From Yaniella halotolerans DSM 15476 (GTDB taxonomy: Bacteria > Actinomycetota > Actinomycetes > Actinomycetales > Micrococcaceae): a DNA stretch of 64,000 nt. The stretch is from assembly GCF_000420805.1 (NCBI RefSeq), contig NZ_ATVQ01000001.1, positions 1,426,001 to 1,490,000 of the forward strand, given 5' to 3'. This document shows, in pieces, positions 9,039-36,902 of the stretch (the stretch's first letter is position 1; the number at the start of each line of letters is the position of its first letter). The notes below the pieces were generated by a model. The model was not told where the DNA came from. It ran no database searches and saw only the letters and a program-made list of their open reading frames with translations. The translations under genes and the position numbers were made by a program.

Positions 9039-9950
9039 TCACTGGGTCATGTTCATGATGATCTCGCCGACGGCATTGGCTCGGCGCGTCGGTTGGGCGT
9101 CAATCTGCCACGACAGCACAACCGGTTCTGCCTGCAGCGGGGGTTGTATTGCGCGATGAATCAGGGGCAGCCCCTCGTAGGAGACTTTGGTTCTAGTCTG
9201 TTGAAAAAATAATGAGTAGCCAAACCCTCGAGCGACCATCGAGCGAACCGTTTCATAACTGGTGGAGCGATGCATGACATTGGGGCGCAGGCCCCGCTCG
9301 TGAAGCAGCCGAAGCGTATTATCCCCGGCCGGTGGGAGATCCAAGAGGATGAGGGGCTCTGACTCGAGCTCTTCAAGTGAGACTTCTGACTGTGCGGCCA
9401 TGGCGTGATGTTCGGGTAGAGCGACCTGCGGGGCGGTTTGAAAGAGCTCGTCACTCACCAGTCCCATCGGCAGGCCCACCCGGTAGGAAATCATCATATC
9501 CAGATGGCCATCCAGGACCTGCTGGGCCAGCATCTCGATCGGCCCCTCCTGAATATCAAGCTGAACCTCGGGAAGTTGCTGTGCCACTTGTGCCCAGAGC
9601 TCCGGAATGATCGTCGCGGCCAGGGTCGAGTAGCAGCCAACGCTCACGGAGCCGCGGGGCACATCTGAGGTGTTGCCGATATGGAGCGTCAGTTCTTCGG
9701 CCTGTTCTAGGAGAGCGGCAGCGCGAGTGACGAGATCCTGGCCCGCAGCCGTGGTCGTCAAGCCCTTTGCGCGACGTCGAATGACGAGTTGGGCATGAAA
9801 GCTGGTTTCGAGTTCGGTGACCGCGGAAGCTACCGCGTTAGGGGTCACATGCATGGCTTCGGCGGCTGCGGCAAATGAGCCCTCACGTGCTGCAGCGATA
9901 AACAGTTCCAGTTGCCGCAGGGTGGGATGAGGTTCGAGCGTATTCGACAT
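9039..9950 (-). CDS. LysR-family transcriptional regulator
   Basis: The 303-residue protein has an N-terminal winged HTH typical of LysR (LRQLELFIAAAREGSFAAAAEAMHVTPNAVASAVTELE, about residues 11-49) and a periplasmic-binding-like effector domain (GSVSVGCYSTLAATIIPEL onward). It is divergent from the HtaA-like and P450-fusion genes across only 74 bp, so it most likely controls that pair and itself. The effector is probably an aromatic or related P450 substrate, which is inference from position. Repeats between the two starts look like its binding sites. Confidence 0.88.
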   Translation of the reverse strand: MSNTLEPHPTLRQLELFIAAAREGSFAAAAEAMHVTPNAVASAVTELETSFHAQLVIRRRAKGLTTTAAGQDLVTRAAALLEQAEELTLHIGNTSDVPRGSVSVGCYSTLAATIIPELWAQVAQQLPEVQLDIQEGPIEMLAQQVLDGHLDMMISYRVGLPMGLVSDELFQTAPQVALPEHHAMAAQSEVSLEELESEPLILLDLPPAGDNTLRLLHERGLRPNVMHRSTSYETVRSMVARGFGYSLFFQQTRTKVSYEGLPLIHRAIQPPLQAEPVVLSWQIDAQPTRRANAVGEIIMNMTQ

Positions 9951-9953
9951 AAC

Positions 9954-9997
9954 GCAATTCTATTGCACATAAAACGCGATTCTCCTCAGTTGCACAT
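9954..9997. promoter_or_regulatory. Putative LysR operator between divergent genes
   Basis: GCAAT-TCT-ATTGC (9954-9966) is a perfect interrupted palindrome. TTGCACAT occurs twice in direct repeat (9963-9970 and 9990-9997, 27 bp apart, about 2.5 helical turns). A third variant, TTGCGTAC, is at 10003-10010. Such spaced half-sites between a LysR gene and its divergent target are typical of LysR tetramer binding. Confidence 0.5.
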
Positions 9998-10024
9998 CTT
10001 TATTGCGTACGTCACAGTAGTGGT

Positions 10025-10492
10025 GTGGGTAAACAGAAATTTTTCCAGGAACCAAGTACCGTCGCAGGCCTTGCCTGGGGGCTACACGCGCCATTCCGGG
10101 AGTACATACGCCGGATGTCTGACGGTGCGATGAGCGCTCTTGGTGACGCCGAAATGCGCTCGAGCGACGAAACCTATTTTCCGCTCGATCCTCAGAGCAT
10201 ACCGGGGCAGGCCCTGCGGTTCACCGGAACCCTCCAATTCACCGGCCACCACGGAATGCTCGCCGTCACCATCCAGGACCCGTGGATTGAGTTCCGCGAG
10301 GGGGCCGGTGTGCTCACGATCGTTGACCCATTCGACGGCGGCGCCCGCATGGACGTGGTTGCCATAGATTTTCAAGACGACAACACCGCAAGCACACGGT
10401 TGACCGAAGCCGGTACCGATCTGTTTATGGGGAACTACCCCGAAGAAATTGCACTTGATGACTTGCGCATTCTTTGGGCCGGAAAGGACTAG
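10025..10492 (+). CDS. HtaA-domain-like small protein
   Basis: The 155-residue protein resembles a single HtaA domain. Near the N-terminus is AGLAWGLHAPFREYIRRM (compare the WGVKxSFRxY opening of HtaA), then LRFTGTLQFTGHHGMLAVTI and a DPWIEF...VLTIVDP stretch (compare FxGxVxFTGHxGxLxxxIxxPxxxI). In corynebacteria, HtaA domains bind haem on the cell surface. Here there is no signal peptide or anchor, so the protein should be cytosolic. It ends 6 bp before the P450-fusion start and is surely cotranscribed with it, so a role in haem supply or substrate binding for the P450 is inferred. The GTG at 10025 has a poor ribosome binding site, and the true start is uncertain by some codons. Confidence 0.6.
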   Translation: MGKQKFFQEPSTVAGLAWGLHAPFREYIRRMSDGAMSALGDAEMRSSDETYFPLDPQSIPGQALRFTGTLQFTGHHGMLAVTIQDPWIEFREGAGVLTIVDPFDGGARMDVVAIDFQDDNTASTRLTEAGTDLFMGNYPEEIALDDLRILWAGKD

Positions 10493-10498
10493 TGCCAG

Positions 10499-13400
10499 AT
10501 GACAACGCCACATGATCAAGCCAAAGCAGCTCCCATTGCTGATTGGGTAACGATCCCTGAGCTGTACCGTGATCCATTCCCTGCATTTGAGCGGCTCCGC
10601 CAAGAGGGTGGCGTCCACTGGGTCCCCGCCATCGGTCGCTACCTGATCACGTCCTATGATGCCGTCCACGACACCGAACTCGACCAGGAAACTTTCTCGG
10701 CCAATGAACAGGGTTCACTGATGATTCGGGCAATGGGTCACTCCATGTTGCGCAAGGACGACCCCGATCACCGGGTTGAGCGACAGGCCTGGCAACCTGT
10801 GCTGCGCCCGTCGGTGGTCAAGAAAACTTGGGCGCCAATTTTCCATCGCAATGCCCAGCGCTACGTGGACGAACTCAAAGCGAAGGGCCCGGGTGCCGAT
10901 CTGGTGTGGGATTTCGCTGCACCCTACGCGGCCGAAAACCTGCGAGCTGTCACAGGCCTGCACAACGTGACCCAGCACGATCTGCAGCGCTGGTCCCAGA
11001 CCATGATCGATGCCACCGGCAACTATGCCGATGATCCGGTGGTCTGGGCTAAAGGCGAAGCCTCCTATAACGAAGTCGACGAGGCCCTAGATGAAATGCT
11101 GGCCTGGCATCGACGGAATCCAGATGACTCACTGCTTTCAGCTCTCGTTCAGCTACCTGATTACCAAATGCCGGTTGAGTCCATTCGTGCGAACCTGAAA
11201 ATGACCATTGGTGGCGGTCTCAACGAACCACGCGATGCTATCGGTGTGGCCGCGTGGGCGCTCATGCAAAATCCAGACCAGCTGGCCATCGTGCAAAACG
11301 ATCCCTCAAAGTGGGATGCGGTCTTTGATGAAGCGATCCGCTGGGTCGCCCCGATCGGGATGTACTCGCGTCAGACCACGCGTGATGTCGTATTGCAGGG
11401 AACATTTTTGCCTGCCGGGGCGAAACTGGGCATCTCCCTGCTGTCTGCAAATCGCGACACGAAGTATTGGAAGCAGCCAGAGCGCTTCGATCTGATGCGC
11501 ACCGGTGAAGGGGCTCACCTAGCCTTTGGCAAGGGCGTCCACGTGTGTCTGGGAGCCTGGGTGGCGCGCGAGGAATTTACGGCGGCATTGCCTAAACTGT
11601 TCACTGAACTACCAGAACTGGGCCTCATTGAAGATCAGCCAGCAGAAGCCGGTGGTTGGGTGTTCCGAGGCATGGACCTGCTGCCGGCCCAATGGGAGGC
11701 CCCAGAGAGCGCGTCAACCTCAAAGAAGCAGAGCCCGCACGTTGCGATCGTTGGCTCAGGTCCCTCGGGCTGTTACACGGCTCAGGCGATTAAGCGCAAC
11801 GTGCCAGACGCTCGCGTTACCATCTTCGACCGGTCGGCCACGCCCTATGGTCTGGTCCGCTCCGGTGTTGCCGCGGACCATCAGGGCACCAAGGATGTCG
11901 AAATTCAATTTGCCCAACTCTTCGAGCGTCAAGGCGTCGAGTTTATCGGCTCAACTACCGTGCATAACGGTGAACCGGCCACCGATGTTGCCATCCTCGG
12001 TCGGCCCTCCTACCATGCACCAGCAGTGTCCTCGGTGCACGCACCTGGCGCCGAGATCACCCTGGAGCAACTTCGCAGCACCCACGACGCAGTCGTTGTG
12101 GCGACCGGGCTGAGCGCCGATAAAACGCTTGCGATTTCGGGCGCTGATGTGGACTGCATCTATGGTGCGGGACGAATCGCTCGATTGCTCAACGCAGATG
12201 CTACCGAGCACGCGGACGAGCAGGCCATGCCTGATCTCGGATCCGATGTCACTGTTGTGGGCAACGGGAACGTTGCAATGGATATGATTCGTCTGCTGGC
12301 CTCGGATCATGCACAGCTTGTCACCTCAGATATTGACGAAGACACCCACGTGGCGTTGACACGCGACCTGAACACCCTCAATGTGATTGGTCGCTCAGCT
12401 GTTGCGGACGCGAAATTTGATACCGTCATGCTTCGTGAAATCCTCGAGCTGCCAGGCATCAACCACACTGTTCACGGTTTTTCACGTGATGCTCAACCCA
12501 CCGACGACGCCCGTGCAACGCTGGTCCAACAGCTGGTAGACCAGCCGACCGATCGTCATGCCCGACTGCACATCAACTGGTACTTCGATCACACTCCACA
12601 ACAGGTCAAAGCCAGTGGCAGCCGAGTCAGCGAACTCGTGGTCGCTTCCGGTGCGCTTGAGGTGAGCATCGCCTCCACCTCGCTTATTACCGCTATCGGG
12701 TTCGGTTCCGCTGGTGGGCAACTCGTCGAGGTCGATGAGCAGGCTGCGGCAACGGGCCGAATTGAACCGGGACTGTACGTTGCCGGGTGGTTGCGTCGCG
12801 GGCCGGTCGGCACTATTCCTACCCAGCGTACCGATGCACGTGAGCTGGCCGATATCATCGCCGCTGATTTGGTGCGCGGGGAGGTGCAGCGTCGTGCGGG
12901 GATGTCTGCGCTTCGCAGGGATCTGGCGCGGGCCACATCCTGGGATGGCTGGTTGCTGGTTGATGCACATGAAAAGGCCAACGCAGCAGAACCTCGCCCG
13001 CGAACCAAGCTCACCGATCCTCGCAAGATCCGGTTGCTGGCTGCCTCGGCTACCGATCTTCCACGGTCGGCAAATCAGAAAGCGGAAGTGGAGCTCAACA
13101 ACGCACACTTGCCGAAACTCTTCATCGCCTATGCCACAGAATCGGGGAACGCAGAGCTTGTGGCCGAACAGCTCGTGTTCGATCTGGCAGACCACGCGAA
13201 CGCCTCAACCTTAGATCTGGCAGCGCTGACACCAGACGAGTTGCAAACTGAAACGCCGATGCTGGTGGTGACGTCCAGCTACGACGAGGGTGAACTGCCA
13301 ACAAGTATTCGACCACTGCATGCTCAGCTGCTGTCGCGGCACACGGATCTCACTTCCTTACGCTATGCAATCTTTGGGCTGGGGGATAATTCCTATGAAT

Positions 13401-13585
13401 TCTTCTCGCGCGGTGCCGATATCCTGGACGAATCGCTGCAGGTATCGGGCGCTCGCAGAATTGGCGAGATCGGGCGACACGATGCAGGAGGAGGCACACT
13501 GGCCACCGACCAGGCAGCACGCTGGGTGGGCGCAGTGATTGAAGAGCTCATGGCGAGTAATGTTCGAGAAGTTGCTGCACAGTGA
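10499..13585 (+). CDS. Self-sufficient P450: P450 - adrenodoxin-reductase-like FAD domain - flavodoxin fusion
   Basis: The protein has 1028 residues and three catalytic modules. Residues 1-400 are a cytochrome P450 with the haem loop AFGKGVHVCLGAW (Cys350) and an I-helix reading GGGLNEPRD (Glu243, with Pro where most P450s have Thr). Residues about 413-860 are an FprA/adrenodoxin-reductase-type NADPH reductase: FAD loop VAIVGSGPSGCYTAQ, NADP loop VVGNGNVAMDM, and YVAGWLRRGPVGTIPTQRT. Residues about 870-1020 are a diflavin-type flavodoxin: FMN loop ATESGNAE and FGLGDNSYEFF. Electrons would run NADPH to FAD to FMN to haem within one chain. The order haem-FAD-FMN differs from P450 BM3 (haem-FMN-FAD) and from CYP116B (haem-FMN-FeS). 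The xEP I-helix recalls, from memory, the aryl-O-demethylase GcoA (QEP), so an aromatic ether substrate is possible but unproven. Confidence 0.9.
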   Translation: MTTPHDQAKAAPIADWVTIPELYRDPFPAFERLRQEGGVHWVPAIGRYLITSYDAVHDTELDQETFSANEQGSLMIRAMGHSMLRKDDPDHRVERQAWQPVLRPSVVKKTWAPIFHRNAQRYVDELKAKGPGADLVWDFAAPYAAENLRAVTGLHNVTQHDLQRWSQTMIDATGNYADDPVVWAKGEASYNEVDEALDEMLAWHRRNPDDSLLSALVQLPDYQMPVESIRANLKMTIGGGLNEPRDAIGVAAWALMQNPDQLAIVQNDPSKWDAVFDEAIRWVAPIGMYSRQTTRDVVLQGTFLPAGAKLGISLLSANRDTKYWKQPERFDLMRTGEGAHLAFGKGVHVCLGAWVAREEFTAALPKLFTELPELGLIEDQPAEAGGWVFRGMDLLPAQWEAPESASTSKKQSPHVAIVGSGPSGCYTAQAIKRNVPDARVTIFDRSATPYGLVRSGVAADHQGTKDVEIQFAQLFERQGVEFIGSTTVHNGEPATDVAILGRPSYHAPAVSSVHAPGAEITLEQLRSTHDAVVVATGLSADKTLAISGADVDCIYGAGRIARLLNADATEHADEQAMPDLGSDVTVVGNGNVAMDMIRLLASDHAQLVTSDIDEDTHVALTRDLNTLNVIGRSAVADAKFDTVMLREILELPGINHTVHGFSRDAQPTDDARATLVQQLVDQPTDRHARLHINWYFDHTPQQVKASGSRVSELVVASGALEVSIASTSLITAIGFGSAGGQLVEVDEQAAATGRIEPGLYVAGWLRRGPVGTIPTQRTDARELADIIAADLVRGEVQRRAGMSALRRDLARATSWDGWLLVDAHEKANAAEPRPRTKLTDPRKIRLLAASATDLPRSANQKAEVELNNAHLPKLFIAYATESGNAELVAEQLVFDLADHANASTLDLAALTPDELQTETPMLVVTSSYDEGELPTSIRPLHAQLLSRHTDLTSLRYAIFGLGDNSYEFFSRGADILDESLQVSGARRIGEIGRHDAGGGTLATDQAARWVGAVIEELMASNVREVAAQ

Positions 13586-14468: not shown

Positions 14469-15812
14469 CTAGCTCCGCAGGAATTGTCCGCGCGGAGTGT
14501 GGAAGTCCACTTTTTTACCTCGTAACCAGGTCGCTTCGACCTGTCCGGTGAGCTCTTTGCGGTCGTAGGGCGTGATGGGGTTGCGGTGGTGCAGGCTGCC
14601 GGCATCAACTGTCCAGGTTGCATCTGGATCAAAGATCACCAGATCAGCATCATAACCAACCGCTACCCGTCCTTTGTGCTCCACTTGTGCAATTTGTGCA
14701 GGCCTGTCGGCCATCCAGGAGGCTACGGTTGCCAAGTTAATGCCGCGTTGCCTGGCTTCTGTCCAAACCACCGAGAGTCCAAGTTGCAGCGAGGAGATGC
14801 CACCCCAGGCTGTATTGAAATTCCCGTTGCCGTGTTCTTTGAGTTCAAGAGTGGACGGCGAGTGGTCGGAAACAACAATATCGATCACCCCATCGAGCAA
14901 CCCCTGCCACAGCCGTTCGCGGTTTGAGCTCTCACGGATTGGTGGGGCACATTTGAACGCTGTCTTACCGTCGTCGATGTTCTCGCTCAACAGTGTTAGA
15001 TAGTGTGGGCAGGTCTCAACCGTCAGCGGCAGGCCTTCGGCCTTTGCCGACGCGATCTGGTCCAGGCAATCGGCGTTTGATAGATGCAGAATATGGGCTC
15101 GGGCGCCAGTAGCGCGCATCGCATCAATGACCGATTGGATGGCGACACTTTCGGCTTCACCTGGCCGAGAGGCGAGGAAGTCACTATATTTTGAACTTGG
15201 TTGTAAGCCTTCCGCTCGTACCTGCTCCAGGGTATGAGCATCTTCGGCATGCACAATCATCAGCCCATCAAATGTGGCGATCACCGCCATATCCTGTTGC
15301 ATTTCTTCGGGCTCAAGTTTAGGGAACTCATCGACCCCCGAGTGTTCCAGAAAGCATTTGAAACCAAAGACACCGGCATCCTGCAGTGCTATCAGTTCGT
15401 CGGTATTACCTGGGATCGCACCGCCCCAAAAACCTGTGTCAATGTGAATCTGATCTTTAGCAGCGGCCCGCTTGAGGTCTAGCGCATCAACATTGACTGT
15501 CGAGGGAATCGAGTTCAACGGCATATCGATCAGCGTCGTCACTCCACCGGCCGCCGCGGCACGGGTAGCTGAGTCAAAGCCCTCCCATTCGGTGCGACCC
15601 GGCTCATTGACGTGTACATGGGTGTCCACCAAGCCGGGCAGCACGATTTGGTGTTCTGGAACGTGGATGAGCTGGTCTGCGGTCAGGCTGGTTCCCAACG
15701 GTTCCAGTGCCGCGATTTTTCCGTGACGGACACCCACTTCAAGTGGTTGGATACTGCCGTCATGTAGTACCTGCTGGGCCCGGAACACCACGTCAAAGGC
15801 AGGTTGTGTCAT
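14469..15812 (-). CDS. allB: Allantoinase
   Basis: This 447-residue cyclic amidohydrolase opens the hydantoin ring of allantoin to allantoate. Seen are the metal-binding VDTHVHVNEPGRTEWEGF, the carboxylated-lysine segment GFKCFLEHSGVDEFP, later metal ligands in MIVHAEDAHT and AHILHLSNA, the aspartate in IVSDHSPS, and the product-loop Asn/Gly region FNTAWGGI. I start at 15812 because GAAAGG lies 7 nt upstream. The ATG at 15836, which overlaps the glycerate kinase stop, is the alternative. It is the last gene of the hyi-glxR-gcl-glycerate kinase-allB operon, so allantoin breakdown and glyoxylate use are expressed together. Confidence 0.93.
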   Translation of the reverse strand: MTQPAFDVVFRAQQVLHDGSIQPLEVGVRHGKIAALEPLGTSLTADQLIHVPEHQIVLPGLVDTHVHVNEPGRTEWEGFDSATRAAAAGGVTTLIDMPLNSIPSTVNVDALDLKRAAAKDQIHIDTGFWGGAIPGNTDELIALQDAGVFGFKCFLEHSGVDEFPKLEPEEMQQDMAVIATFDGLMIVHAEDAHTLEQVRAEGLQPSSKYSDFLASRPGEAESVAIQSVIDAMRATGARAHILHLSNADCLDQIASAKAEGLPLTVETCPHYLTLLSENIDDGKTAFKCAPPIRESSNRERLWQGLLDGVIDIVVSDHSPSTLELKEHGNGNFNTAWGGISSLQLGLSVVWTEARQRGINLATVASWMADRPAQIAQVEHKGRVAVGYDADLVIFDPDATWTVDAGSLHHRNPITPYDRKELTGQVEATWLRGKKVDFHTPRGQFLRS

Positions 15813-15832
15813 GCTTGATCCTTTCGTAGGCA

Positions 15833-17026
15833 TCACGCTGGTTGTGCTAATAAAATATCACCGATTTGTTCCCCAACCTGGGTCAAGAGGCTCGGTGTTT
15901 GGCGCATTGACACATCGGGGTCAGGTTCTAACTCAGTCAGTGCGAAGACTCGCGTGATGCCGGCGGCTTCTGTCTCGGCGGTTGAGAGCAGGTTGCGTCC
16001 ACAGACTGCATAGACCGGGATCCGTTGCTGACTGGCCAGTTGGGCGACCCCGGCAGGAGCTTTACCCTGAAGTGTTTGAGCATCGAGACTGCCCTCCCCG
16101 GTGATCACTAGGTCAGCGTCAGCTAGAGCATCAGCAAAACCGACCAGGTCTAAAATAACGTCGATCCCACTGCGCCTTTGGGCGCGGAGCACCGCCATCG
16201 CGCCGAAACCTGCTCCACCGGCTGCGCCGGCACCAGGTTGCGCAACGTGATCGGCAACAGATTGCCCGGCGTCTAGCCCGAAGTCGCGTTCTGTGGCTTC
16301 CGTCAGAAGTTGTGCATAGTGCCCCAGGGCTGCGTCAAGCATTACCACATCGTGCCCGGTGAGACCTTTTTGGGGGCCGAATACCGCAGCGGCGCCCTCG
16401 TGGCCCAGTAGTGGATTCTCTACGTCGCTGGCGAGCACAAGTTTGGTGTGCATCCAGCGGGGGTCAAGACCGGTAAGGTTCACTTGGTCCAGGTGTTGTA
16501 GGGCTGCGCCACCATCGGCTAGGTGTTTACCGTTCTGGTCGAGGAGTTCTACGCCTAGTGCGGCCAACATGCCTGCCCCGCCGTCGGTGCAGGCAGAACC
16601 TCCCAAGCCCAGCGTGATGCGGGTAGCGCCTGCATCCAGGGCAGCCTGGAGGAGTTCTCCGGTGCCCCTACTGGTTGCTGTGGCACCGGTCAGCCGGGAG
16701 GTTTCTAAAAGTTCAATGCCTGAGGCCTGAGCTAATTCAACCACCGCGTCGATGCCATCGGAGCTGGTATGCATGGCCCAGGCGGCGTCGATGGGTTCTC
16801 CAATCGGGCCGGTCACCCGGGTTATCTGGCGTTTGAAACCCGCCGAGATGGCGGCGTCGACGGTGCCTTCACCGCCATCAGCGACCGGTACACAACGTAC
16901 CTCCGCCGGGGAGATCGTCGAGCGGAGACCCCTTTTGAGCGCTACGGCGACCTCCTCGGCGGTGGCAGACCCTTTGAACTTATCGGCAGCGATAACAATG
17001 ACCGCCTGTGTGCTCATCGGGCTCAC
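15833..17026 (-). CDS. glxK: Glycerate kinase (GarK/GlxK family)
   Basis: This 397-residue kinase phosphorylates glycerate, the end product of the glyoxylate carboligase route, to a phosphoglycerate for glycolysis. Family motifs are IAADKFKGSATAEEVA at the N-terminus, VADGGEGTVDA, LGLGGSACTDGGAGMLAALG, the AGAAGGAGFGA glycine stretch, and LVITGEGSLDAQTLQGKAPAGVA. Members of this family usually give 2-phosphoglycerate. The start is within three codons (GTG at 17026, or ATG at 17017). It follows gcl by 2 bp and overlaps the possible upstream allB start, so it is translationally linked. Confidence 0.92.
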   Translation of the reverse strand: MSPMSTQAVIVIAADKFKGSATAEEVAVALKRGLRSTISPAEVRCVPVADGGEGTVDAAISAGFKRQITRVTGPIGEPIDAAWAMHTSSDGIDAVVELAQASGIELLETSRLTGATATSRGTGELLQAALDAGATRITLGLGGSACTDGGAGMLAALGVELLDQNGKHLADGGAALQHLDQVNLTGLDPRWMHTKLVLASDVENPLLGHEGAAAVFGPQKGLTGHDVVMLDAALGHYAQLLTEATERDFGLDAGQSVADHVAQPGAGAAGGAGFGAMAVLRAQRRSGIDVILDLVGFADALADADLVITGEGSLDAQTLQGKAPAGVAQLASQQRIPVYAVCGRNLLSTAETEAAGITRVFALTELEPDPDVSMRQTPSLLTQVGEQIGDILLAQPA

Positions 17027-17028
17027 CG

Positions 17029-18822
17029 TTAATCCAGCAGCATGAGAGCAGTTGGGGCATCTGCTGCGGTAACGGCAAGATCTTCAAACTCGTTGATGCT
17101 ATCCAGCGCGGTCCCCATGGCAATATTGGTTACGCGTTCGAGGATAACTTCCACGACAACCGGCACTTTGTACTGGTCCATCAAGGACCGGGCTTGAGCA
17201 AAGGTGGTGCCGAGCTGCGCTGGGTCTTCGACGCGCAATGCCTTACATCCCAAACCCTCGGCGACTTTGATGTGGTCCACCCCGTAGCCAGCAGTGCCGG
17301 ATTCTTTAGCTTCTGGGCTGGCATTGATGTTTTCAAAAGCTAAGGAAACCTCGTAATCCATGTCGAAGGCGCGTTGCGACTGGCGGATCAACCCCAGATA
17401 GGAGTTATTGACCACGACGTGGAGATATGGCAAATTGTGCTGGGCTCCAACAGCAAGTTCTTCGACCATGAATTGGAAGTCATAGTCACCCGAGAGTGCG
17501 ACCACGGTTGCATCCGGTTTCGCACGGGCCACGCCCAATGCGGCAGGCCCTGTCCAACCCAGTGGGCCTGCCTGTCCGGCATTGATCCAGGAACGTGGAT
17601 TGTAGGCGTGCAGCATCTGGGCGCCGGCAATCTGGCTCAAGCCAATCGTCGTGACATAAGTGGTGTCGCGACCGAACGCTTGATTCATCTCCTGATAGAC
17701 CCGTTGCGGTTTAATCGGCATCTGGTCGAAATGCGTTTTGCGTTGCAGCCCTGCCTTGCGTGCGGTGCAACTATTCGCCCAGTCCCTATAGCTGGGTATG
17801 GTGCCTGCGGCCTGGCGTTTCCGAGCGGCGGCCAGCAGGGCCTGCAGAGCAGCCTTGGCATCGGAAACCACACCGTAATCAGGAGCGAATACCCGCCCAA
17901 TTTGGGTCGGTTCAATATCGACGTGAATGAATTTCCGACCCTTCCGATAAGTATTGAGGTCTCCGGTATGGCGATTCGCCCAGCGGTTGCCAATGCCCAG
18001 CACGATGTCGGCTTCTAAGAAGCTGGCATTGCCGTAACGGGTGTGGGTTTGAATGCCGACCATGCCCGACATCAACGGATGATCGTCCGGGATCGCACCC
18101 CAGCCCATGAGCGTTGGGGCAACGGGGATATCCAGCAGGTCAGCGAGTTCGACAAGCTCGGCTGCGCCGTCGGCGTTAATAATGCCACCGCCGGCGACGA
18201 TCATCGGATGTTCATGGGCGAACAGCATATCTAGGATCTTATTGGCCTGAGCTTCGGTAGCTTCTGGTTTGAGCACCGGCAATGGTTCGTAGGTGTCAAT
18301 ATCGAAGTCGATCTCGGTCATCTGCACGTCGAGTGGCAGGTCAATAAGCACCGGGCCGGGGCGAGCGGATCGCATGAGCTGGAATGCCTTCTGGAAGGTG
18401 CCGGGCACCTGACCAGCTTCCAGAACCGTGGAGGCCATTTTGCAGAGCGGCTTGGCAATCTCATCAATATTGATGGCCTGGAAATCTTCTTTATGTAGAA
18501 CCGCAACGGGGGCCTGGCCGGTGATGCACAGCAGGGGGATCGAATCGGCTGCTGCAGCATACATTCCGGTAATCATGTCGGTGCCCGCCGGCCCGGACGT
18601 GCCAATGCACACGCCGATATTGCCTGCGGCTGCACGGCTGTAACCGTCCGCCATATGCGAGGCACCTTCCACATGGCGTGCAAGCGTGTGCTTGATACCG
18701 CCGTGGGCTTTCATCGCTGAATATAGCGGGTTTATCGCGGCACCCGGCAGCCCGAAGGTTTCGGTGGCCCCTTCTTTTTCCAGAATCAATGCGATGGCAT
18801 CAACTGCGCGCATGAGGGTCAT
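17029..18822 (-). CDS. gcl: Glyoxylate carboligase (tartronate-semialdehyde synthase)
   Basis: This 597-residue ThDP and FAD enzyme joins two glyoxylates into tartronate semialdehyde and CO2. It begins [36 protein letters not shown]. It carries the Gcl-specific [13 protein letters not shown] segment, where Val replaces the usual catalytic Glu before the conserved EGA, as in known Gcl proteins. The PP domain keeps the metal motif [10 protein letters not shown] and VVNNSYLG. Length matches the family (about 593). It is the central gene of the operon and receives glyoxylate released from ureidoglycolate. Confidence 0.95.
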
Positions 18823-18860: not shown

Positions 18861-19751
18861 TTAGTTGTCGGCTCGGCCGGACAGCTGTTCGACCAAACGG
18901 AATAGTCCGGAGTGGTCCAAGCCGCCGTCTCCGGTGCGTACCGTTGAGGCAACAAGTTGTGCAACAGCCGCACCGATCGGGATAACAACACCGGCCTCTC
19001 TGGCGGCGGCAGTGACAATGCCCATGTCTTTGTTGTGCAGTTCAAGACGGAAGCCGGGGGAAAATTCACGGTCCAGCATTTTCTGGCCCTTTTGATCGAG
19101 TACCTTGGAACCAGCTAACCCGCCACCCAGAACCTGCAGGGCTGAGGACGTGTCCACGTCGTAGGCCTCGAGGAAGACGATTGCTTCGGCCAATAATTGG
19201 ATATTGCCAGCGACCATGAGCTGGTTGGCCGCTTTTACCGTTTGGCCCGAACCTGTGGGGCCAACCAACACGATGGTCTTGCCCATCGCATCGAGTACAT
19301 CTTGTACAGCTTCGAAGTCTTCTGATTCACCGCCGACCATGATGGACAGCGCCGCATCGATGGCCCCTTGTTCACCACCAGAGACCGGGGCATCGAGGGG
19401 TTTGATCCCTGCGGCTCGAGCCTGTTGCGATAGTTCTGTGGTGACATCCGGGCGAATTGAAGAGTTGTCGATCCAGTAGGCACCCTGAGGGGCATTCGCA
19501 AAGACCCCATCTTCGCCGGTGACCACCTCAGTCACGTGTGGTGAGTCAGGCACCATAGTGATGATGACGTCCGCGCCTTTGACGGCTTCAGCGATGGTGC
19601 TGGCGGCTTGACCACCAGCAGTTGCTAGTTCTTCGGTCTTGCCAGGGGAGCGGTTATAACCGGTGACATTAAATCCGGCACTAATCAGGTTCTTCGCCAT
19701 TGGCAAGCCCATGATCCCCAGTCCGATGAATGCGATGTTTTGTTTAGCCAT
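18861..19751 (-). CDS. glxR: Tartronate semialdehyde reductase (2-hydroxy-3-oxopropionate reductase)
   Basis: This 296-residue beta-hydroxyacid dehydrogenase reduces tartronate semialdehyde to glycerate with NAD(P)H. Seen are the N-terminal Rossmann motif FIGLGIMGLPMAKNLISAGF, the substrate-binding DAPVSGGEQGAIDAALSIMVGG, the catalytic lysine segment GSGQTVKAANQLMVAGN, and the cofactor-side FSPGFRLELHNKDMGI. It lies between hyi and gcl, 38 bp before gcl. The name glxR here is the E. coli enzyme; it should not be confused with the actinobacterial Crp-type regulator GlxR. Confidence 0.93.
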   Translation of the reverse strand: MAKQNIAFIGLGIMGLPMAKNLISAGFNVTGYNRSPGKTEELATAGGQAASTIAEAVKGADVIITMVPDSPHVTEVVTGEDGVFANAPQGAYWIDNSSIRPDVTTELSQQARAAGIKPLDAPVSGGEQGAIDAALSIMVGGESEDFEAVQDVLDAMGKTIVLVGPTGSGQTVKAANQLMVAGNIQLLAEAIVFLEAYDVDTSSALQVLGGGLAGSKVLDQKGQKMLDREFSPGFRLELHNKDMGIVTAAAREAGVVIPIGAAVAQLVASTVRTGDGGLDHSGLFRLVEQLSGRADN

Positions 19752-31462: not shown

Positions 31463-32740
31463 TCACGATGCGGACTCTGGTACCAGACCGGTTGAAGCCA
31501 AATGCTGTAGTGCAAGTCGGTCTAAGCCGATGCGGTGTTGCATCTGCGTAGGATCTGCAGCACCACACGCGATGCTGCGAAGAATGTATCGAGCTAGTGC
31601 TTTGGCTGTGGCGGGTTCGTCCATGATGCCGCTGTGTTCGGTTCGCATGTATCGCTCCAATCGGTCCACTGCTGAAGCCAGCGAACGGTTGAAGAAATCG
31701 AAAGTTGCCATAAACCGGGTTGGTAGTTGAGCAGGATGCATATCCCAGCCCTGGTAGATGCCTCGACGTAGGTGGCGTCCTACTAACCGGGCGTGGAGCT
31801 GCCAAGCATCACGGACCTGCTCAGGATCGCCTACGGGCAAGATATTGGTAGAGCCATCCGAGAAGTGCACCCCTGTTTCGGCAACCGCGGTCAGGACGAC
31901 GTTCTTAGCAAAATCAGCGGCTGGGTGCTCCATGGATTGGTAGGCTGCGGCAATCCCCAGCGAGGCCGAATAGTCGTAGGTCCCGTAGTGCAACGAACTG
32001 ATCCGACCTTGTCCGGCGTGGACTACGTCGGCCACTGTGGAACGCCCGTCGGCGCTGATAATCAGCTGCGGTGTTTCTACCTGCACCTCGTAACGCAGCA
32101 CACCCTCTGCTAGGCCCAATCCGGATTCAAGCGCGGCAGTAACATCGTTCATCGCCTTGACCTGATCAACTGTTGTGACCTTCGGCAGAGTCAACATGGT
32201 TGAGGGAGGTAGCTCACCGGTGAGTTCTGTCAGAGTTGCCAGATACCGTTCTAAAGTGCGCAGTCCACGAACACGTAGATCAGCCTCTAGGCACTTGAAA
32301 CGAATCCCAATAAATGGTGGTGCGGTACCTTCCTGCAATGCTTTGGCAACCTGTTGGGCCGCTGCAGTGGCGTGTTGATCTTCTTCGGCATCGTTGCGAC
32401 GTCCATAGCCGTCTTCAAAATCGATGCGCAGATCCTCAACCGGCTCATTGGTGAGCTTGCGCTCAACGAGTGTAGCCAGCTGATCTCGATATTCCGGATC
32501 AGCCGTGCTATCCACCGCCAGCTCTGCGATCTGAGACATCCCACCCTGCTGTCGGACGGTATTCAACGCCTCTTGACCCCAATGTTGTGCGGTGTCGAAG
32601 CTGAACTGATCGGCAGGAACATAAGCGGTGTGCACAGCTTGGCGACGCCCATCGTCCCCCGGATAGGCACTTGCCAGCAGAGCATCTGTGGCAGCCAGGG
32701 TCTGATTCAGTTGGTGAAACATGTCATCGTTGAGAATCAC
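31463..32740 (-). CDS. HpcH/HpaI-aldolase-like protein (DUF6986 type)
   Basis: The 425-residue protein resembles, from memory, the actinobacterial DUF6986 family, a relative of the HpcH/HpaI and malate-synthase-type barrel enzymes. Visible are DLRIDFEDGYGRR (an acidic metal-binding type segment), MLTLPKVTTVDQVKAM, LRYEVQVETPQLI (Glu metal ligand) and RISSLHYGTYDYSASLGI. Its start overlaps the malate synthase stop by 4 bp, and it ends 27 bp before the ureidoglycine aminohydrolase start. This tight placement between enzymes that consume glyoxylate and make ureidoglycolate suggests it works on one of these. A missing ureidoglycolate-cleaving role is a hypothesis only. Confidence 0.75.
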   Translation of the reverse strand: MILNDDMFHQLNQTLAATDALLASAYPGDDGRRQAVHTAYVPADQFSFDTAQHWGQEALNTVRQQGGMSQIAELAVDSTADPEYRDQLATLVERKLTNEPVEDLRIDFEDGYGRRNDAEEDQHATAAAQQVAKALQEGTAPPFIGIRFKCLEADLRVRGLRTLERYLATLTELTGELPPSTMLTLPKVTTVDQVKAMNDVTAALESGLGLAEGVLRYEVQVETPQLIISADGRSTVADVVHAGQGRISSLHYGTYDYSASLGIAAAYQSMEHPAADFAKNVVLTAVAETGVHFSDGSTNILPVGDPEQVRDAWQLHARLVGRHLRRGIYQGWDMHPAQLPTRFMATFDFFNRSLASAVDRLERYMRTEHSGIMDEPATAKALARYILRSIACGAADPTQMQHRIGLDRLALQHLASTGLVPESAS

Positions 32741-34347
32741 TGGTCAATCACCTCGTAGGCAGGCAGGGTTAGGAAGTCGACAAAGTCCTCTTCACGTCCG
32801 CTGGTGATGCGAGCGATGATCTCCGCGGCAGGCTTGTAATAGCGGAGAAAAATGTCATCATCATCGACTTCGTCGCGCAGCCGTTGGACTTCTTCCTCAA
32901 GGATAGCTGTGACACGCGCCGCAGTCATCACCTCGCCGGTATCTGCCGCGGTCACGTTATTGGCGATCAGCTGCCAAACCTGCGAGCGGGAAATTTCAGC
33001 GGTGGCGGCATCTTCCATGAGACTTCGGATTGCCACGGCACCGTTACCCGACAGCCAGACTGCGGTATAAGCAACGGCAACATACAGGTTATTGCGTACG
33101 CCTTCTTCGGTTATTTGACCCGGTGCAGATTCGACGTCGAGGAGATCTGCGGCAGTAACGTTGACATCATCGCGTTGCCGGTCGACTTGGTTGTGCTTGC
33201 CGCCGAGCACCTTATCGAATTCCGCTACACAGATCGGCACCAGATCAGGGTGGGCGACCCAGGAACCGTCAAAGCCGTCTTCAGCTTCGCGCTGTTTATC
33301 AGCACGGACCTTGCCCATGGCAATTTCATTGGTCTCGGGTTGATGACGATTGGGAATGAAGGCGGCCATCCCGCCGATTGCAAAGGCACCGCGACGGTGA
33401 CAGGTCTTAACTAATAGGTCGGTATAAGCACGCATCATCGGTGCGGTCATCGACACATCCGCGCGATCAGGCAGCACAAATTTCTTGCCGGCTTCACGGA
33501 AGGTTTTGATGATCGAGAATAAATAATCCCAACGCCCAGCGTTGAGACCCGCGGCATGGTCACGAAGTTCATAGAGGATCTCGTCCATCTGAAAAGCTGC
33601 GGGGATAGTTTCGATAAGTACAGTAGCCCGAACGATTCCGTGGTCTAGGCCGAGTTCGGCTTCGGAGAACGAAAAAATGTCGTCCCACAGACGGGCTTCT
33701 AAGTAGTGTTCTAGCTTTGGCAGATAGTAGAATGGTCCGTTGCCTTGTTCATGTAGTAGAGCAGCATTGTGGAAGAAGTGCAGTCCAAAGTCCACCAACG
33801 CACCAATGGAACGATCGCCGTCGATCTCGAGGTTCTTTTCGCTGAGGTGCCAGCCGCGCGGTCGTACGACGACGGTCGCCAATTCTTCGGCAGGGCGTAG
33901 CGAATAGGATTTACCTTCCGGCGATGTGAAGGACAGGTTGCCTCGAGTAGCGTCATACAGGTTGACCTGAGATTCAATCACGTTGTGCCAAAATGGTGCC
34001 GACGCGTCCTCCAGGTCGGCTAACCACACTTTGGCGCCGGAGTTCAGTGCGTTGATCGCCATCTTGGATGGGGCGACCGGACCGGTGATCTCCACGCGTC
34101 GATCGCGCAGTTTTTCAGGCGCCGGCGCCACAGTCCAATCAGATTCACGAATATGTTTGGTCTCTGGCAGAAAGTCCATGGTCCCAGCTTGTACAGCTGC
34201 CTGTCGAGCGGTGGCTCGTGCGTGGAGTAGGTCATTGCGCCGAGCTGCGAAGCGCCGGTGCAGTTTTTCTAAGAATGCGAGCGCCTCCGGGGTCAGGATG
34301 TCATCGGCGCGGTCCATCTCGGTACGGTCAGTCATAGTAATAGTCAT
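32737..34347 (-). CDS. aceB: Malate synthase A
   Basis: The 536-residue enzyme condenses glyoxylate with acetyl-CoA to malate. Characteristic are WLADLEDASAPFWHNV, LVVRPRGWHLSEKN-like segments (VVVRPRGWHLSEKNLEID), the Mg-binding region in ATVLIETIPAAFQMDEILYELRDHAAGLNAGRWDYLFS (the malate synthase signature), and GGMAAFIPNR, then SWVAHPDLVPI. AAGGAGA lies 7 nt before the ATG. It is the second gene of the malic enzyme operon. No isocitrate lyase is in the window, so here the enzyme seems tied to purine-derived glyoxylate rather than to the glyoxylate shunt. Confidence 0.95.
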   Translation of the reverse strand: MTITMTDRTEMDRADDILTPEALAFLEKLHRRFAARRNDLLHARATARQAAVQAGTMDFLPETKHIRESDWTVAPAPEKLRDRRVEITGPVAPSKMAINALNSGAKVWLADLEDASAPFWHNVIESQVNLYDATRGNLSFTSPEGKSYSLRPAEELATVVVRPRGWHLSEKNLEIDGDRSIGALVDFGLHFFHNAALLHEQGNGPFYYLPKLEHYLEARLWDDIFSFSEAELGLDHGIVRATVLIETIPAAFQMDEILYELRDHAAGLNAGRWDYLFSIIKTFREAGKKFVLPDRADVSMTAPMMRAYTDLLVKTCHRRGAFAIGGMAAFIPNRHQPETNEIAMGKVRADKQREAEDGFDGSWVAHPDLVPICVAEFDKVLGGKHNQVDRQRDDVNVTAADLLDVESAPGQITEEGVRNNLYVAVAYTAVWLSGNGAVAIRSLMEDAATAEISRSQVWQLIANNVTAADTGEVMTAARVTAILEEEVQRLRDEVDDDDIFLRYYKPAAEIIARITSGREEDFVDFLTLPAYEVIDQ

Positions 34348-34399
34348 TGCGGGGTCTCCTTTGGAATCTCAACAAGGGATAGAAGAATGTTCTGAAGAG

Positions 34400-35788
34400 T
34401 TAGCCATTTTGACGCGCGGTTTCGGTGATTGCCTCGGCAACTCGTGTGGCCACCTCGGGGTCGAACACCGAAGGAATGATGTAGCCGGGGTTCAGCTCGT
34501 CAGCCGAAATACAGGAAGCGATGGCTTGTGCTGCTACGACGAGCATCTCGTCGGTAATATCGCTGGATTGGGCGTCGAGCAGGCCGCGGAAAAATCCTGG
34601 GAATGCCAGCACATTGTTGATTTGGTTTGGGTAATCTGATCGACCGGTCGCCACAACGGCGGCATGCCGAGCTGCGATATCAGGATGGACTTCTGGGTCT
34701 GGATTCGACATCGCAAACACGATCGCATTGGCATTCATTGCTTTGATATCTTCTTCGTCTAGCAGATCAGGAGCCGACACTCCGATGAAGACATCCGCGC
34801 CAACTACCGCGTCCTTTAATGATCCGGCAAAGTTTTCCTGGTTGGTGTGTTCTGCCAACCACTGACGGTGCTGATCTTCGTGTGTTGAACCGTGTTCGAT
34901 CACACCGTTGCGGCCTGCGGCCAGAATGTGCTGGGCACCAGAAGCGATCAGGAGTTTGATGATGGCGGTCCCTGCGGCACCAACGCCGGACACGACGATC
35001 CGAATATCCCCGATATCTTTGCCAACGACTTTCAACGCGTTGATCAACGCAGCCTGGGTCACGATCGCCGTACCATGCTGGTCGTCATGGAATACCGGGA
35101 TATTGAGTTCTTCACGCAGACGAGCTTCGATTTCAAAACAGCGCGGTGCAGAGATGTCTTCGAGATTAATCCCCCCGTAGGCGGGGGCGAGTGCCTTGCA
35201 AATGGAAATAATTTCTTCGGTGTCGTTGGTATCAAGCGCCACTGGCCAGGCGTCAACGCCGGCGAATTGTTTGAAGAGCACTGCCTTGCCTTCCATGACC
35301 GGCATTGCTGCTTCGGGACCGATGTCGCCGAGCCCGAGGACTGCGCTCCCGTCGGTGACGACAGCGATGGTATTTCGTTTGATCGTCAGGTTGCGAGCAT
35401 CAGCCTTGTTCTTTGCAATTGCTTGGCAAACACGTGCCACCCCCGGTGTGTAGGCGCGTGAGAGGTCGTCGCGGTTGCGCAATGGAACCTTCGGCGTCGT
35501 CTCGATCTTGCCACCGAGATGCATCAGGAACGTGCGGTCTGAGATGTTTCCGACTTCTACACCATCAAGGGCATCCACTGTGCTCCGAATCTCGTCGCCG
35601 TGAGCGCGATCCCGGATATTGCATGATACATCGACGGTCATGCCACTGTGAGAGGACCCCACAACATCCACGCCGGTGATCTGTGCGCCGGTGCTGGCCA
35701 CAGCGTTCGTTACATCGGAGGTTGCGGTAAACGTTGCAGGAGTGGAAACTCGAACGGTAATGGAGTAGCCAGGGCTTGGTGCAGACAT
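34400..35788 (-). CDS. NAD(P)-dependent malic enzyme with N-terminal ACT domain
   Basis: The 462-residue protein has an N-terminal ACT-like domain (YSITVRVSTPATFTATSDVTNAV, about residues 7-75), then the malic enzyme part: RDDLSRAYTPGVARVCQAI, the catalytic lysine region RNTIAVVTDGSAVLGLGDIGP, AMPVMEGKAVLFKQFAGVDAWP, DISAPRCFEIE, FHDDQHGTA, and the NAD fold VVSGVGAAGTAIIKLLIASGA. It decarboxylates malate to pyruvate. I chose the ATG at 35788 with AAGGAG 6 nt upstream. As first gene of the operon it takes malate made by malate synthase on to pyruvate. It is divergent from the IclR gene, with two operators between. Confidence 0.93.
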   Translation of the reverse strand: MSAPSPGYSITVRVSTPATFTATSDVTNAVASTGAQITGVDVVGSSHSGMTVDVSCNIRDRAHGDEIRSTVDALDGVEVGNISDRTFLMHLGGKIETTPKVPLRNRDDLSRAYTPGVARVCQAIAKNKADARNLTIKRNTIAVVTDGSAVLGLGDIGPEAAMPVMEGKAVLFKQFAGVDAWPVALDTNDTEEIISICKALAPAYGGINLEDISAPRCFEIEARLREELNIPVFHDDQHGTAIVTQAALINALKVVGKDIGDIRIVVSGVGAAGTAIIKLLIASGAQHILAAGRNGVIEHGSTHEDQHRQWLAEHTNQENFAGSLKDAVVGADVFIGVSAPDLLDEEDIKAMNANAIVFAMSNPDPEVHPDIAARHAAVVATGRSDYPNQINNVLAFPGFFRGLLDAQSSDITDEMLVVAAQAIASCISADELNPGYIIPSVFDPEVATRVAEAITETARQNG

Positions 35789-35814
35789 GTAAGGCTCCTT
35801 TGAAAACATTGTTA

Positions 35815-35829
35815 TTCCACTATGCGGAA
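35815..35829. promoter_or_regulatory. IclR/AllR-type operator, malic enzyme side
   Basis: TTCCACTATGCGGAA, 26 bp before the malic enzyme start codon. It is symmetric and matches the shared palindrome. A weaker half-like copy (TTACTCTGTGGAA) lies at 35838-35850. Confidence 0.65.
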
Positions 35830-35873
35830 TCAAATCTTTACTCTGTGGAATACAGTATTGCGCATCACGTTTA

Positions 35874-35889
35874 TTTCAGCAAGTGGAAA
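35874..35889. promoter_or_regulatory. IclR/AllR-type operator, iclR side
   Basis: TTTCAGCAAGTGGAAA, the same palindrome as its neighbours, 57 bp before the IclR start codon. A shorter variant, TTCCATTGTTGAAA, overlaps the leader at 35924-35937. Autoregulation is likely. Confidence 0.6.
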
Positions 35890-35946
35890 TATGTTTTCAT
35901 AGATTCGATGTAGCATAAGACTATTCCATTGTTGAAAGGGTTGATC

Positions 35947-36738
35947 ATGGAGGACGTAGTGAGCAATGTCGACGGGCAGTCCACGAAGTCGACGCGGTCG
36001 GGGGTGCAGTCCGTTGTACGAGCATTTGCGCTACTGGATCTCATTGCAGATGCCGGTGGAAGGGCAACGCTCAGTGAACTTGCAGAGCGCGCTGATCTGC
36101 CGATGCCCACCATTCACCGGCTGCTCAGGACGCTGGTCGGCTTGGGTTGCGCGCGCCAAATGGAAGACCGCGGATACGCTCTAGGTCCCGCTTTAATGCG
36201 CCTCGGGGACCTTGCGGGTAGGCAGCTTGGGGATATCGTGCAACCTTACCTGCGGTCGCTGGTTCAGGATCTGGGGGAGACTGCCAATATTGCGGTACTC
36301 GACGGTGACATGATGGTGTACTCAGCGCAAGTACCATCGCAGCACTCCATGCGCATGTTCACAGAGGTGGGGCGCCGTGTCCACCCGTCGGCGACGGGGG
36401 TGGGCAAGGCGGTGCTGCCAAGTTTGAAGCAAGAACGCATTGCGCAAATCGTGCAATCTTCCGGCATGCCAGAGCTGACGCCAAAAACGATTACTGATTA
36501 TGACGAACTCCTTGAAGAGCTTGACCGTATTCGAGAACGAGGCTATGCCATTGACGAGGAAGAGCAGGAGTTGGGTGTTCGCTGCTTTGCGGTCAATGTT
36601 CCAGGGGCTCCCACCCCGACTGCGGTCTCGGTGTCGGGTCCGAAGAGCCGTTTGGACGAGGAGTTTGCCAAGCGCGCTATCCCTCTGGTGCAGGGTGCCG
36701 CACAGCAGATTGGTGCGGAGTTGAATCGAGTCGAGTAG
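35947..36738 (+). CDS. IclR-family regulator, AllR-like
   Basis: This 263-residue protein has an N-terminal winged HTH (SVVRAFALLDLIADAGGRATLSELAERADLPMPTIHRLLRTL, about residues 23-64) and an IclR effector domain with SAQVPSQHSMRMFTEVGRRVHPSATGVGKAVLPSL and GVRCFAVNVPGAP. The first of these resembles the glyoxylate-binding pocket region of AllR. The ATG at 35947 has GAAAGG upstream; the GTG at 35959 has GGAGG upstream and is an alternative. It sits between the malic enzyme operon and the urate genes, and palindromes of one type flag its probable regulon. A strong terminator follows. Confidence 0.9.
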   Translation: MEDVVSNVDGQSTKSTRSGVQSVVRAFALLDLIADAGGRATLSELAERADLPMPTIHRLLRTLVGLGCARQMEDRGYALGPALMRLGDLAGRQLGDIVQPYLRSLVQDLGETANIAVLDGDMMVYSAQVPSQHSMRMFTEVGRRVHPSATGVGKAVLPSLKQERIAQIVQSSGMPELTPKTITDYDELLEELDRIRERGYAIDEEEQELGVRCFAVNVPGAPTPTAVSVSGPKSRLDEEFAKRAIPLVQGAAQQIGAELNRVE

Positions 36739-36761
36739 CTTGCTGCGTTGACTGCAATCTC

Positions 36762-36793
36762 AAACCCCGGACTTGCAAGAGTCCGGGGTTTTT
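36762..36793 (+). terminator. Terminator after the IclR gene
   Basis: A perfect 12-bp stem (36762-36773 with 36780-36791), loop TGCAAG, running into TTTTT, 23 bp after the stop codon. Confidence 0.95.
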
Positions 36794-36892: not shown

Positions 36893-36902
36893 GTAGATTG
36901 AG

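Follow-up and report, generated by a model that had tools for sequence, protein, structure and literature searches.

How would a P450 receive electrons from an adrenodoxin-reductase-type domain and a flavodoxin that lie in the same chain, what might such an enzyme oxidise, and why is it preceded by an HtaA-like gene? These questions arise from a locus of Yaniella halotolerans (Micrococcaceae), which we analysed within a stretch of 64,000 nucleotides (the window, to which all positions refer). We would put roughly 60% on the following reading as a whole: the locus encodes a natural self-sufficient monooxygenase for methoxylated aromatic acids, which is switched by a LysR regulator and has an HtaA-like haem partner. 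The features are:

9039-9950, minus strand: divergent LysR-family regulator (Pfam HTH_1 and LysR_substrate)
9951-10024, no strand: 74 bp between the divergent genes, a putative promoter/operator for both; TTGCAC boxes at 9963-9968 and 9990-9995
10025-10492, plus strand: single-domain HtaA-like (CR-fold) protein, 155 aa, GTG start (Pfam HtaA PF04213, 5e-16)
10103-10105, plus strand: Tyr27, which aligns with HtaA's axial haem Tyr (8smu/6jsa)
10247-10249, plus strand: His75, which aligns with HtaA's helper His (His of 8smu; Ala of the H434A mutant 6jsc)
10436-10438, plus strand: Tyr138, the likely propionate-binding Tyr by analogy with Tyr197 of HtaA CR1 (invariant in 22/22 rows)
10499-13585, plus strand: fused P450, FAD reductase and flavodoxin, 1028 aa, one intact frame (frame, Pfam, PDB sequence search, alignment)
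10499-11701, plus strand: P450 domain, CYP1232A-like (60.1% identity over 391 aa to 6g71)
11210-11236, plus strand: I-helix motif GGGLNEPRD, residues 238-246, with Glu243-Pro244 (sequence, alignment)
11525-11554, plus strand: haem-thiolate loop FGKGVHVCLG, with Cys350 (alignment)
11720-13082, plus strand: adrenodoxin-reductase/FprA-type FAD-NAD(P)H domain, residues ~408-862 (PDB 1cjc, 1e-35; FprA, 6e-30)
11753-11770, plus strand: FAD loop GSGPSG (sequence, alignment)
12389-12397, plus strand: Gly-Arg-Ser, where general FprA has Gly-Arg-Arg (alignment)
13106-13549, plus strand: flavodoxin (FMN) domain, residues ~870-1017, cindoxin-like (Pfam Flavodoxin_1, 1.5e-21; 4oxx, 5.6e-16)
13136-13153, plus strand: FMN phosphate loop TESGNA (TESGN is invariant in a 12-row alignment)

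Three redox domains in one chain

A reading made from the letters of the DNA (the sequence-only reading) had proposed three modules in the order haem, FAD and FMN, with a middle domain of the adrenodoxin-reductase/FprA type. Both points held up: Pfam found p450 (best stretch 273-368), Pyr_redox_2 (414-602) and Flavodoxin_1 (876-999), and the PDB matches of the middle domain are adrenodoxin reductase and FprA. At the sequence level, all of the redox domains are in one chain, as in a self-sufficient P450, and neither the domains nor their cofactor motifs are disrupted. The last domain had been called a diflavin-type flavodoxin. It is a flavodoxin, but "diflavin-type" is loose, because its closest solved relative is cindoxin, ahead of CysJ and the P450 reductases. 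An AlphaFold model of the full-length fusion was too weak for docking the domains (pLDDT 62, pTM 0.40). We used its Foldseek list solely for the FAD domain (1e6e, 7e-27, from a model that is weak overall), for the title of 6g71, and for a rough identity to GcoA.

Could an error of assembly or gene calling have joined adjacent genes? The middle and last domains do exist as separate genes elsewhere. However, the frame in the window runs without the stop or frameshift that the sequence-only reading had named as grounds for doubt, and the P450-FAD-FMN order is found in 24 distinct loci of Micrococcales (window included). The three-domain frame is uninterrupted in 22 of the 24 (16 were checked together and the other 8 separately); one of the two exceptions has a single stop inside the flavodoxin (L027), and the other ends with its contig (L032). 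Because the same order occurs in 24 distinct loci whose P450s form one group, the fusion is beyond chance and is no assembly accident. The same frame in independent assemblies from several genera already refutes an artefact or joining frameshift, and we give that explanation next to no weight. Unfused versions of these parts also exist: a Rhodococcus plasmid has the genes P450-FldR-Fld, which keep the order of the fusion, and a second Micrococcaceae genome has FldR-Fld-P450-HtaA. The single-chain enzyme may have arisen by the collapse of such a set of P450, flavodoxin reductase and flavodoxin genes.

In the route that we propose, a hydride from NADH or NADPH would reduce the FAD in the middle domain, which is of the adrenodoxin-reductase type, and single electrons would then move from FAD to the FMN of the C-terminal flavodoxin. 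The flavodoxin is predicted to dock with the N-terminal P450 at its proximal face, either in the same chain or in the partner chain of a dimer, and FMN would reduce the haem twice per cycle. NADPH had been assumed as the coenzyme. The Gly-Arg-Ser motif is invariant in 12/12 aligned fusions. It lies where the NADPH phosphate would presumably bind and where general FprA has Gly-Arg-Arg, so NADH may serve the fusion.

We counted seven P450 matches in the host genome, where a separate FldR-Fld pair adjoins another P450. This is what one might expect if the reductase half served several P450s of the host and the fusion was not truly self-sufficient. But the separate FldR-Fld pair and the general FprA could serve those other P450s, and the three domains are kept in one chain across the group, so we consider a shared reductase improbable.

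The P450 domain and its likely reaction

The best PDB sequence match of the P450 is 6g71 (fusion residues 10-401, 3e-155), whose PDB title is CYP1232A24 from Arthrobacter. By the rules of P450 nomenclature, members of a subfamily share at least 55% identity with a member, and members of a family at least 40%. At 60.1% over 391 aa, the fusion P450 falls within the CYP1232A subfamily by identity. After 6g71, the list continues mostly with structures of GcoA, an O-demethylase, at far lower scores (144 bits vs. 524 bits for 6g71). GcoA (CYP255A) is just ~24% identical in the Foldseek alignments of the weak model, which is below the family level. The sequence-only reading had compared the P450 to GcoA-like O-demethylases: the likeness to aryl O-demethylases stands, but CYP1232A24 replaces GcoA as the nearest relative, which allows a narrower guess at the class of substrates.

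The acid-Pro I-helix noticed by that reading is present, and all 23 other fused loci have the same motif without a change, as do L035, L076-L079 and 6g71. Similarly, the position of Cys350 is invariant in the 12-row alignment and in L067-L075, L035, L076, L078 and L079. In a tree without 6g71, which included four separate P450s on very long branches (L042, L063, L115 and L116), the fused P450s form one group with support of 99/99. When we left out those four and added 6g71 (whose own branch is longish), support for the group was 87/91, and it appeared in 85% of bootstrap trees; 6g71 was its sister, with support of 100/98.

CYP1232A24 reportedly O-demethylates methoxyphenylacetic acids with a separate flavodoxin reductase and flavodoxin. 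Judging from these sequence relationships, the fusion is probably an O-demethylase of plant aromatics. Its CYP1232A-type haem domain, with the Glu-Pro I-helix, would oxidise the methyl group of a methoxyphenylacetate- or methoxybenzoate-type acid. The products would be formaldehyde and a phenol, and the host might cleave the ring of the phenol. Beside the operon we found no ring-cleavage gene: two of the frames upstream gave matches to a TPP enzyme and an LLM oxidoreductase, and for the remaining neighbours we relied on inspection by eye. Elsewhere, the host genome has a gene above the cut-off for HpaD (homoprotocatechuate 2,3-dioxygenase) as well as intradiol dioxygenases. Such matches are not rare, because 3 and 4 of 14 control genomes, respectively, also pass.

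A self-sufficient fusion might instead hydroxylate its substrate, or reduce it as XplA does with RDX. We consider this rather unlikely, although two features fit it: the fusion P450 lacks the acid-Thr pair, as does XplA in the excerpts of its description, and the reductase domain has the same Ser motif as XplB. However, XplA's P450 is just 24% identical to the fusion P450, while CYP1232A24 is its sister with an identical I-helix, and the GcoA entries that follow 6g71 also point to O-demethylation.

The HtaA-like neighbour and the LysR gene

As the sequence-only reading had noted, an HtaA-like frame ends 6 bp before the fusion. It scores 60 bits against the HtaA profile (PF04213; the cut-off is 24). 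According to its structure model (pLDDT 90; VIA Z of 17.9 to the C-terminal domain of C. glutamicum HtaA), this protein has the haem-binding (CR) fold of HtaA. HtaA is a secreted or surface protein, but we found no export segment in its relative by a crude hydropathy measure (the highest 19-residue mean is 1.04). The position of Tyr27 is invariant in 22/22 aligned rows, and His75 is kept in at least 90% of these rows and in 12/12 fusion-linked rows. The axial Tyr and helper His of HtaA are thus both present, and haem binding is predicted. This protein is the sole HtaA match in its genome. We propose that, in the cytosol, it would bind haem and most likely buffer or supply the haem of the P450.

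More broadly, a cytosolic HtaA-fold branch of Actinobacteria might load or protect P450 haem, with the fusion operon (a third architecture with its own haem supplier) as the clearest case; we hold this idea tentatively. The pairing with the fusion is common but is not universal: the HtaA-like gene adjoins 14 of the 24 fusions and is missing from 9. Among plasmid loci with an HtaA-like match, we inspected 8 of 12 records (including two pairs with near-identical contexts) and found a P450 within ~6 kb in 6; the plasmid P450 of L061 is an unannotated tblastn match at 28%. For genome loci of non-fusion relatives, we picked ten lone-domain-looking loci by hand among the matches listed, and a P450 was nearby in 2 of them (L115 and L116). 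The expectation for nine loci, with the weak G133 match left out, is 0.062 (Poisson ~0.002). The G249 match (L117) should be dropped as well, since its frame is 589 aa long and begins like that of an exported protein. This leaves 2 of 8, as compared to ~0.06 expected, in a post hoc comparison. HtaA-like genes thus recur near P450s that are distant from the fused ones. Across the phylum, a search with the HtaA alignment matched 17 of 396 genomes, mostly in long frames.

It is also possible, though doubtful, that the HtaA-like protein binds a ligand other than haem, such as an aromatic substrate or product, and is a carrier or scavenger for oxygenases generally. For example, two of its relatives directly follow the genes for a Rieske oxygenase, which is a non-haem enzyme, and its reductase; no P450 was found at two of the eight plasmid loci; and the Ser that helps to hold a haem propionate in HtaA aligns with a Pro in the window protein. 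On the other hand, both Rieske loci also have a P450 gene ~3 kb on, and the CR fold and the conserved Tyr and His are those of a haem protein. Since nine fusion loci lack the gene and two relatives follow Rieske oxygenase genes, a role in haem supply is attractive but unproven.

The divergent gene is a LysR, as had been claimed, and a divergent LysR is present at 20/24 fusion loci and at 4/5 loci with an unfused P450. We propose that it would turn on the operon in response to the substrate or product. The locus had been described as inducible, which would fit the arrangement of the genes and the partial conservation of the sequence between them: across the six nearest loci, mean column identity is 63% (flanks included), and the TTGCAC boxes vary in some.

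Comparison with known systems

If our main reading is true, then the fusion is a third arrangement of self-sufficient P450s, built from adrenodoxin-reductase and flavodoxin parts. Because the haem domain has a near relative that is structurally solved and reported to be an O-demethylase, a set of methoxyaryl substrates can be tested at once; demethylation of methoxyaryl compounds is relevant to the breakdown of lignin and alkaloids. The recurrent HtaA-like neighbour is a testable case of a bacterial haem-supply protein that is dedicated to P450s.

Our background sources were PMC9687028, PMC8081977, PMC11053648, PMC12494546, PMC4226467, PMC5399000, PMC10820124, PMC6021390, PMC11889516 and PMC12126322. 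Self-sufficient P450s are described as relatively rare, and in two papers from 2025 the classes given for them are VII (CYP116B) and VIII (BM3). The fusion does not belong to class VII, which has an FMN reductase and a 2Fe-2S ferredoxin, as Pfam shows a flavodoxin and Pyr_redox_2 instead. Nor is it class VIII: like BM3, it has haem, FAD and FMN in one chain, but BM3 is described as having a P450-reductase-type module (FMN, then an FNR-type FAD domain), while the fusion has an adrenodoxin-reductase/FprA-type middle domain and its FMN domain is last. In the open-licence literature, we found no papers with the name "CYP1232A24" and, in titles and the starts of abstracts, no report of the P450-FAD-FMN order or of a link between HtaA and P450s; these absences are weak because the search covered open-licence papers.

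The sequence-only reading knew of no class with this order and these parents. That is borne out for the order, given the two named classes, but not for the parents, since XplB, which is adrenodoxin-reductase-like, serves the flavodoxin-fused XplA. Overall, each part has known counterparts among separate proteins, while the fused order is a new variation outside of classes VII and VIII.

XplA/XplB, from RDX-degrading Rhodococcus, has the same three kinds of parts in its excerpted description (an adrenodoxin-reductase-like FAD protein, a flavodoxin and a P450), and XplB shares the Ser in place of the second Arg. However, XplA has its flavodoxin at the N-terminus of a distant P450, rather than at the C-terminus as here, and XplB is separate. 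Microbacterium sp. MA1 is said to have a single-chain XplB-XplA. P450cin belongs to a different P450 family from the fusion P450, and its system is three proteins. It resembles the fusion in the excerpted chain from FAD reductase to flavodoxin to P450, and in cindoxin itself. GcoA shares the Glu-Pro I-helix and the O-demethylase type with the fusion P450, but its partner GcoB is a 2Fe-2S and FAD/NADH reductase. CYP1232A24 is closer, with partners of the same kinds: according to a review, the authors who described it suggested that a gene cluster provides its partners, a flavodoxin and a flavodoxin reductase. But CYP1232A24 was solved as a stand-alone P450 of 405 residues, whereas the fusion is one chain with an HtaA-like neighbour. 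That neighbour shares the fold of the CR domains of HtaA, HtaB and ChtA from Corynebacterium, and the Tyr/His pair of HtaA; while ChtA and HtaA are secreted, it has just one domain, looks cytosolic and is encoded next to an oxygenase.

The fusion gene and its relatives

The fusion and the HtaA-like protein are encoded just 6 bp apart, beside a divergent regulator:

9039-9950, minus strand: LysR regulator (reading frame in the window)
10025-10492, plus strand: HtaA-like frame, 155 amino acids, GTG start (Pfam HtaA)
10499-13585, plus strand: fusion frame, 1028 amino acids (Pfam p450, Pyr_redox_2, Flavodoxin_1)

As the sequence-only reading proposed, P450, FAD, and FMN modules lie in one chain. 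Because the loops for haem (FGKGVHVCLG), FAD (GSGPSG), nucleotide (GNGNVAMD), and FMN (TESGNA) are all kept, the protein is expected to bind haem as well as both flavins, FAD and FMN.

We searched for the fusion among 39 relatives, GTDB contigs, and 396 genomes of the order, and found 24 distinct fused loci: the window's, 13 on named contigs (L021-L033), one in a family genome (L034), and nine in order genomes (L067-L075). The named contigs are from two Yaniella MAGs, a Micrococcaceae MAG, two Enteractinococcus, two Citricoccus, two Gulosibacter, two Tersicoccus, Microbacterium, and Kocuria. In the 396 genomes, there were 14 with matches at 1e-100 or better: ten fused (including the window's own) and four with the P450 alone. 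The stop or frameshift between modules that could have undone the initial proposal was not borne out, as 22 of the 24 loci have an uninterrupted three-domain frame. (L027, at 10001-12976 in Gulosibacter chungangensis, has a single in-frame stop within the flavodoxin domain, which may reflect either decay or a sequencing error, and L032 is cut by a contig end.) In both trees, the P450s of the fusions cluster together (99/99, or 87/91 once the PDB entry 6g71 was added), which fits a single origin of the fusion.

Five loci (L035, L076-L079) have unfused P450s that are 54-58% identical to the window's. We found no fusion-type reductase within the stretches examined at these loci, and the best-scoring reductase matches in their genomes are only 28-35% identical.

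The divergent LysR gene was confirmed, and it recurs at 20 of the 24 fusion loci and at 4/5 of the unfused loci. The six nearest loci give a good alignment of the 74-bp intergenic gap; in the window the gap contains two TTGCAC boxes, 27 bp apart, which are imperfectly kept in the other aligned loci. This layout and the partly conserved gap are compatible with induction but do not demonstrate it. Nearby frames (14469-18822, 18861-19751, and 31463-39124) resemble, by eye, genes for ureide or purine breakdown: allantoinase, glycerate kinase, glyoxylate carboligase, tartronate semialdehyde reductase, malate synthase, HIU hydrolase, and OHCU decarboxylase.

Plausible electron donor and likely substrate

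PDB sequence searches place the middle domain with adrenodoxin reductase and FprA, and the C-terminal domain with cindoxin, the flavodoxin of P450cin. We aligned nine reductases: seven that are associated with flavodoxins (the window's, XplB, and five others) and two general FprA. (For XplB we used the reductase of plasmid p5 of Rhodococcus DN22, which we identified as XplB.) Where the general FprA have the second arginine of Gly-Arg-Arg, all seven flavodoxin-associated reductases have serine, and this serine (Gly-Arg-Ser) is invariant in 12/12 aligned fusions. In FprA and adrenodoxin reductase, the arginine pair binds the 2'-phosphate of NADPH. Since serine replaces one of these arginines, it is plausible that the fusion would use NADH. 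NADH was used in an assay of XplB, according to table text in PMC8081977.

A 28-residue stretch of the FAD domain (residues 489-516, window 11963-12046) has no counterpart in the Gulosibacter L029 or Microbacterium L030 fusions, nor in the aligned separate reductases.

The P450 domain's best PDB match is 6g71, titled CYP1232A24 from Arthrobacter (3e-156; 60.1% identity across 391 residues), which branches as sister of the fused group (100/98). The I-helix, GGGLNEPRD, is identical in the two proteins. The window's P450 had been likened to GcoA, whose Glu-Pro is indeed comparable, but GcoA is much more distant than CYP1232A24 (144 vs. 524 bits). The reaction in the CYP1232A24 study was reportedly O-demethylation of dimethoxyphenylacetic acid. 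As the window's genome has intradiol dioxygenases and one gene that passes the HpaD cutoff (427 bits vs. 321), the host could perhaps use catechol-type products; this is weak support, because 3 of 14 control genomes also pass the HpaD cutoff and 4 of 14 pass the intradiol dioxygenase cutoff. The same genome has a second CYP1232-like P450 (L038, 8965-11270, G000:C1), about 41% identical, beside a LysR gene, with an intradiol dioxygenase ~13 kb away and the HpaD-family gene ~46 kb away.

The HtaA-like protein

Apart from the neighbor of the fusion, the window's genome has no HtaA match. The best structural matches of the neighbor's predicted model (pLDDT 90) are HtaA domains (VIA Z 17.9, rmsd 2.3, 140 residues); after these haem-binding CR domains comes the haemoglobin receptor HbpA (Z 10.3, 9.0), and the first designed barrel has a Z of only 6.7. 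Tyr27 aligns with HtaA's axial tyrosine and His75 with its helper histidine (roles as described in PMC12494546). Tyr27 and Tyr138 are present in every one of 22 aligned relatives, and His75 in nearly all. In contrast, where HtaA's haem pocket has a conserved serine, the window's protein has Pro23. Hydropathy identified no stretch hydrophobic enough for an export segment.

The proposed pairing with the fusion holds only in part: the HtaA-like gene is directly upstream at 14 of 24 loci (including L032, as a contig-end fragment) and lies beyond the LysR gene at L067, but it was not found at the other nine (L031, L068-L075). Relatives also occur near P450s that are only 24-25% identical to the window's, either adjacent (L115, a Micrococcaceae genome with the gene row FldR-Fld-P450-HtaA) or ~1.2 kb away (L116). 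In R. erythropolis R138, a relative is the last gene of a P450-ferredoxin-reductase operon whose P450 is 38% identical to the window's. Across genomes, 2/8 relatives have a P450 neighbor vs. ~0.06 expected, which is a small, post hoc count. A pure haem role is harder to reconcile with two Rhodococcus plasmids (L059, 3877-6456, and L066, 3874-6444), where the gene directly follows an aromatic ring-hydroxylating (Rieske) oxygenase and a VanB-type reductase, or with two plasmid loci that have the HtaA-like gene and where no P450 was found. Both Rieske loci also have a P450 gene ~3 kb beyond. At G260:C1:3539289-3557450, in a genome whose unfused P450 is 57% identical, the HtaA-like gene lies ~16.5 kb from that P450, too distant for an operon.

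Comparison with known P450 systems

A Rhodococcus pyridinivorans plasmid has P450, FldR, and Fld in the fusion's order but as separate genes (P450 21% identical). Elsewhere in the window's own genome, an FldR-Fld pair adjoins a divergent P450 (L040, G000:C1:1302000-1321000, at 9106-12433), which is likely its second flavodoxin-driven P450 system. On Klebsiella and Enterobacter plasmids there are four FldR and flavodoxin hits, which share ~32% identity with the reductase half of the fusion.

Two 2025 papers assign self-sufficient P450s to classes VII and VIII (PMC11889516, with the qualifier "mainly," and PMC12126322). The fusion's P450-FAD-FMN order is in neither class. According to a review (PMC9687028), the CYP1232A24 study put forward a gene cluster in which two P450s are partnered by a flavodoxin and a flavodoxin reductase. 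The fusion's electron carriers are of a kind also seen in CYP1232A24 with its separate partners, in P450cin/cindoxin, and in XplA/XplB. XplB-XplA is said to be a single chain in Microbacterium MA1. The component parts of the fusion were thus already known.
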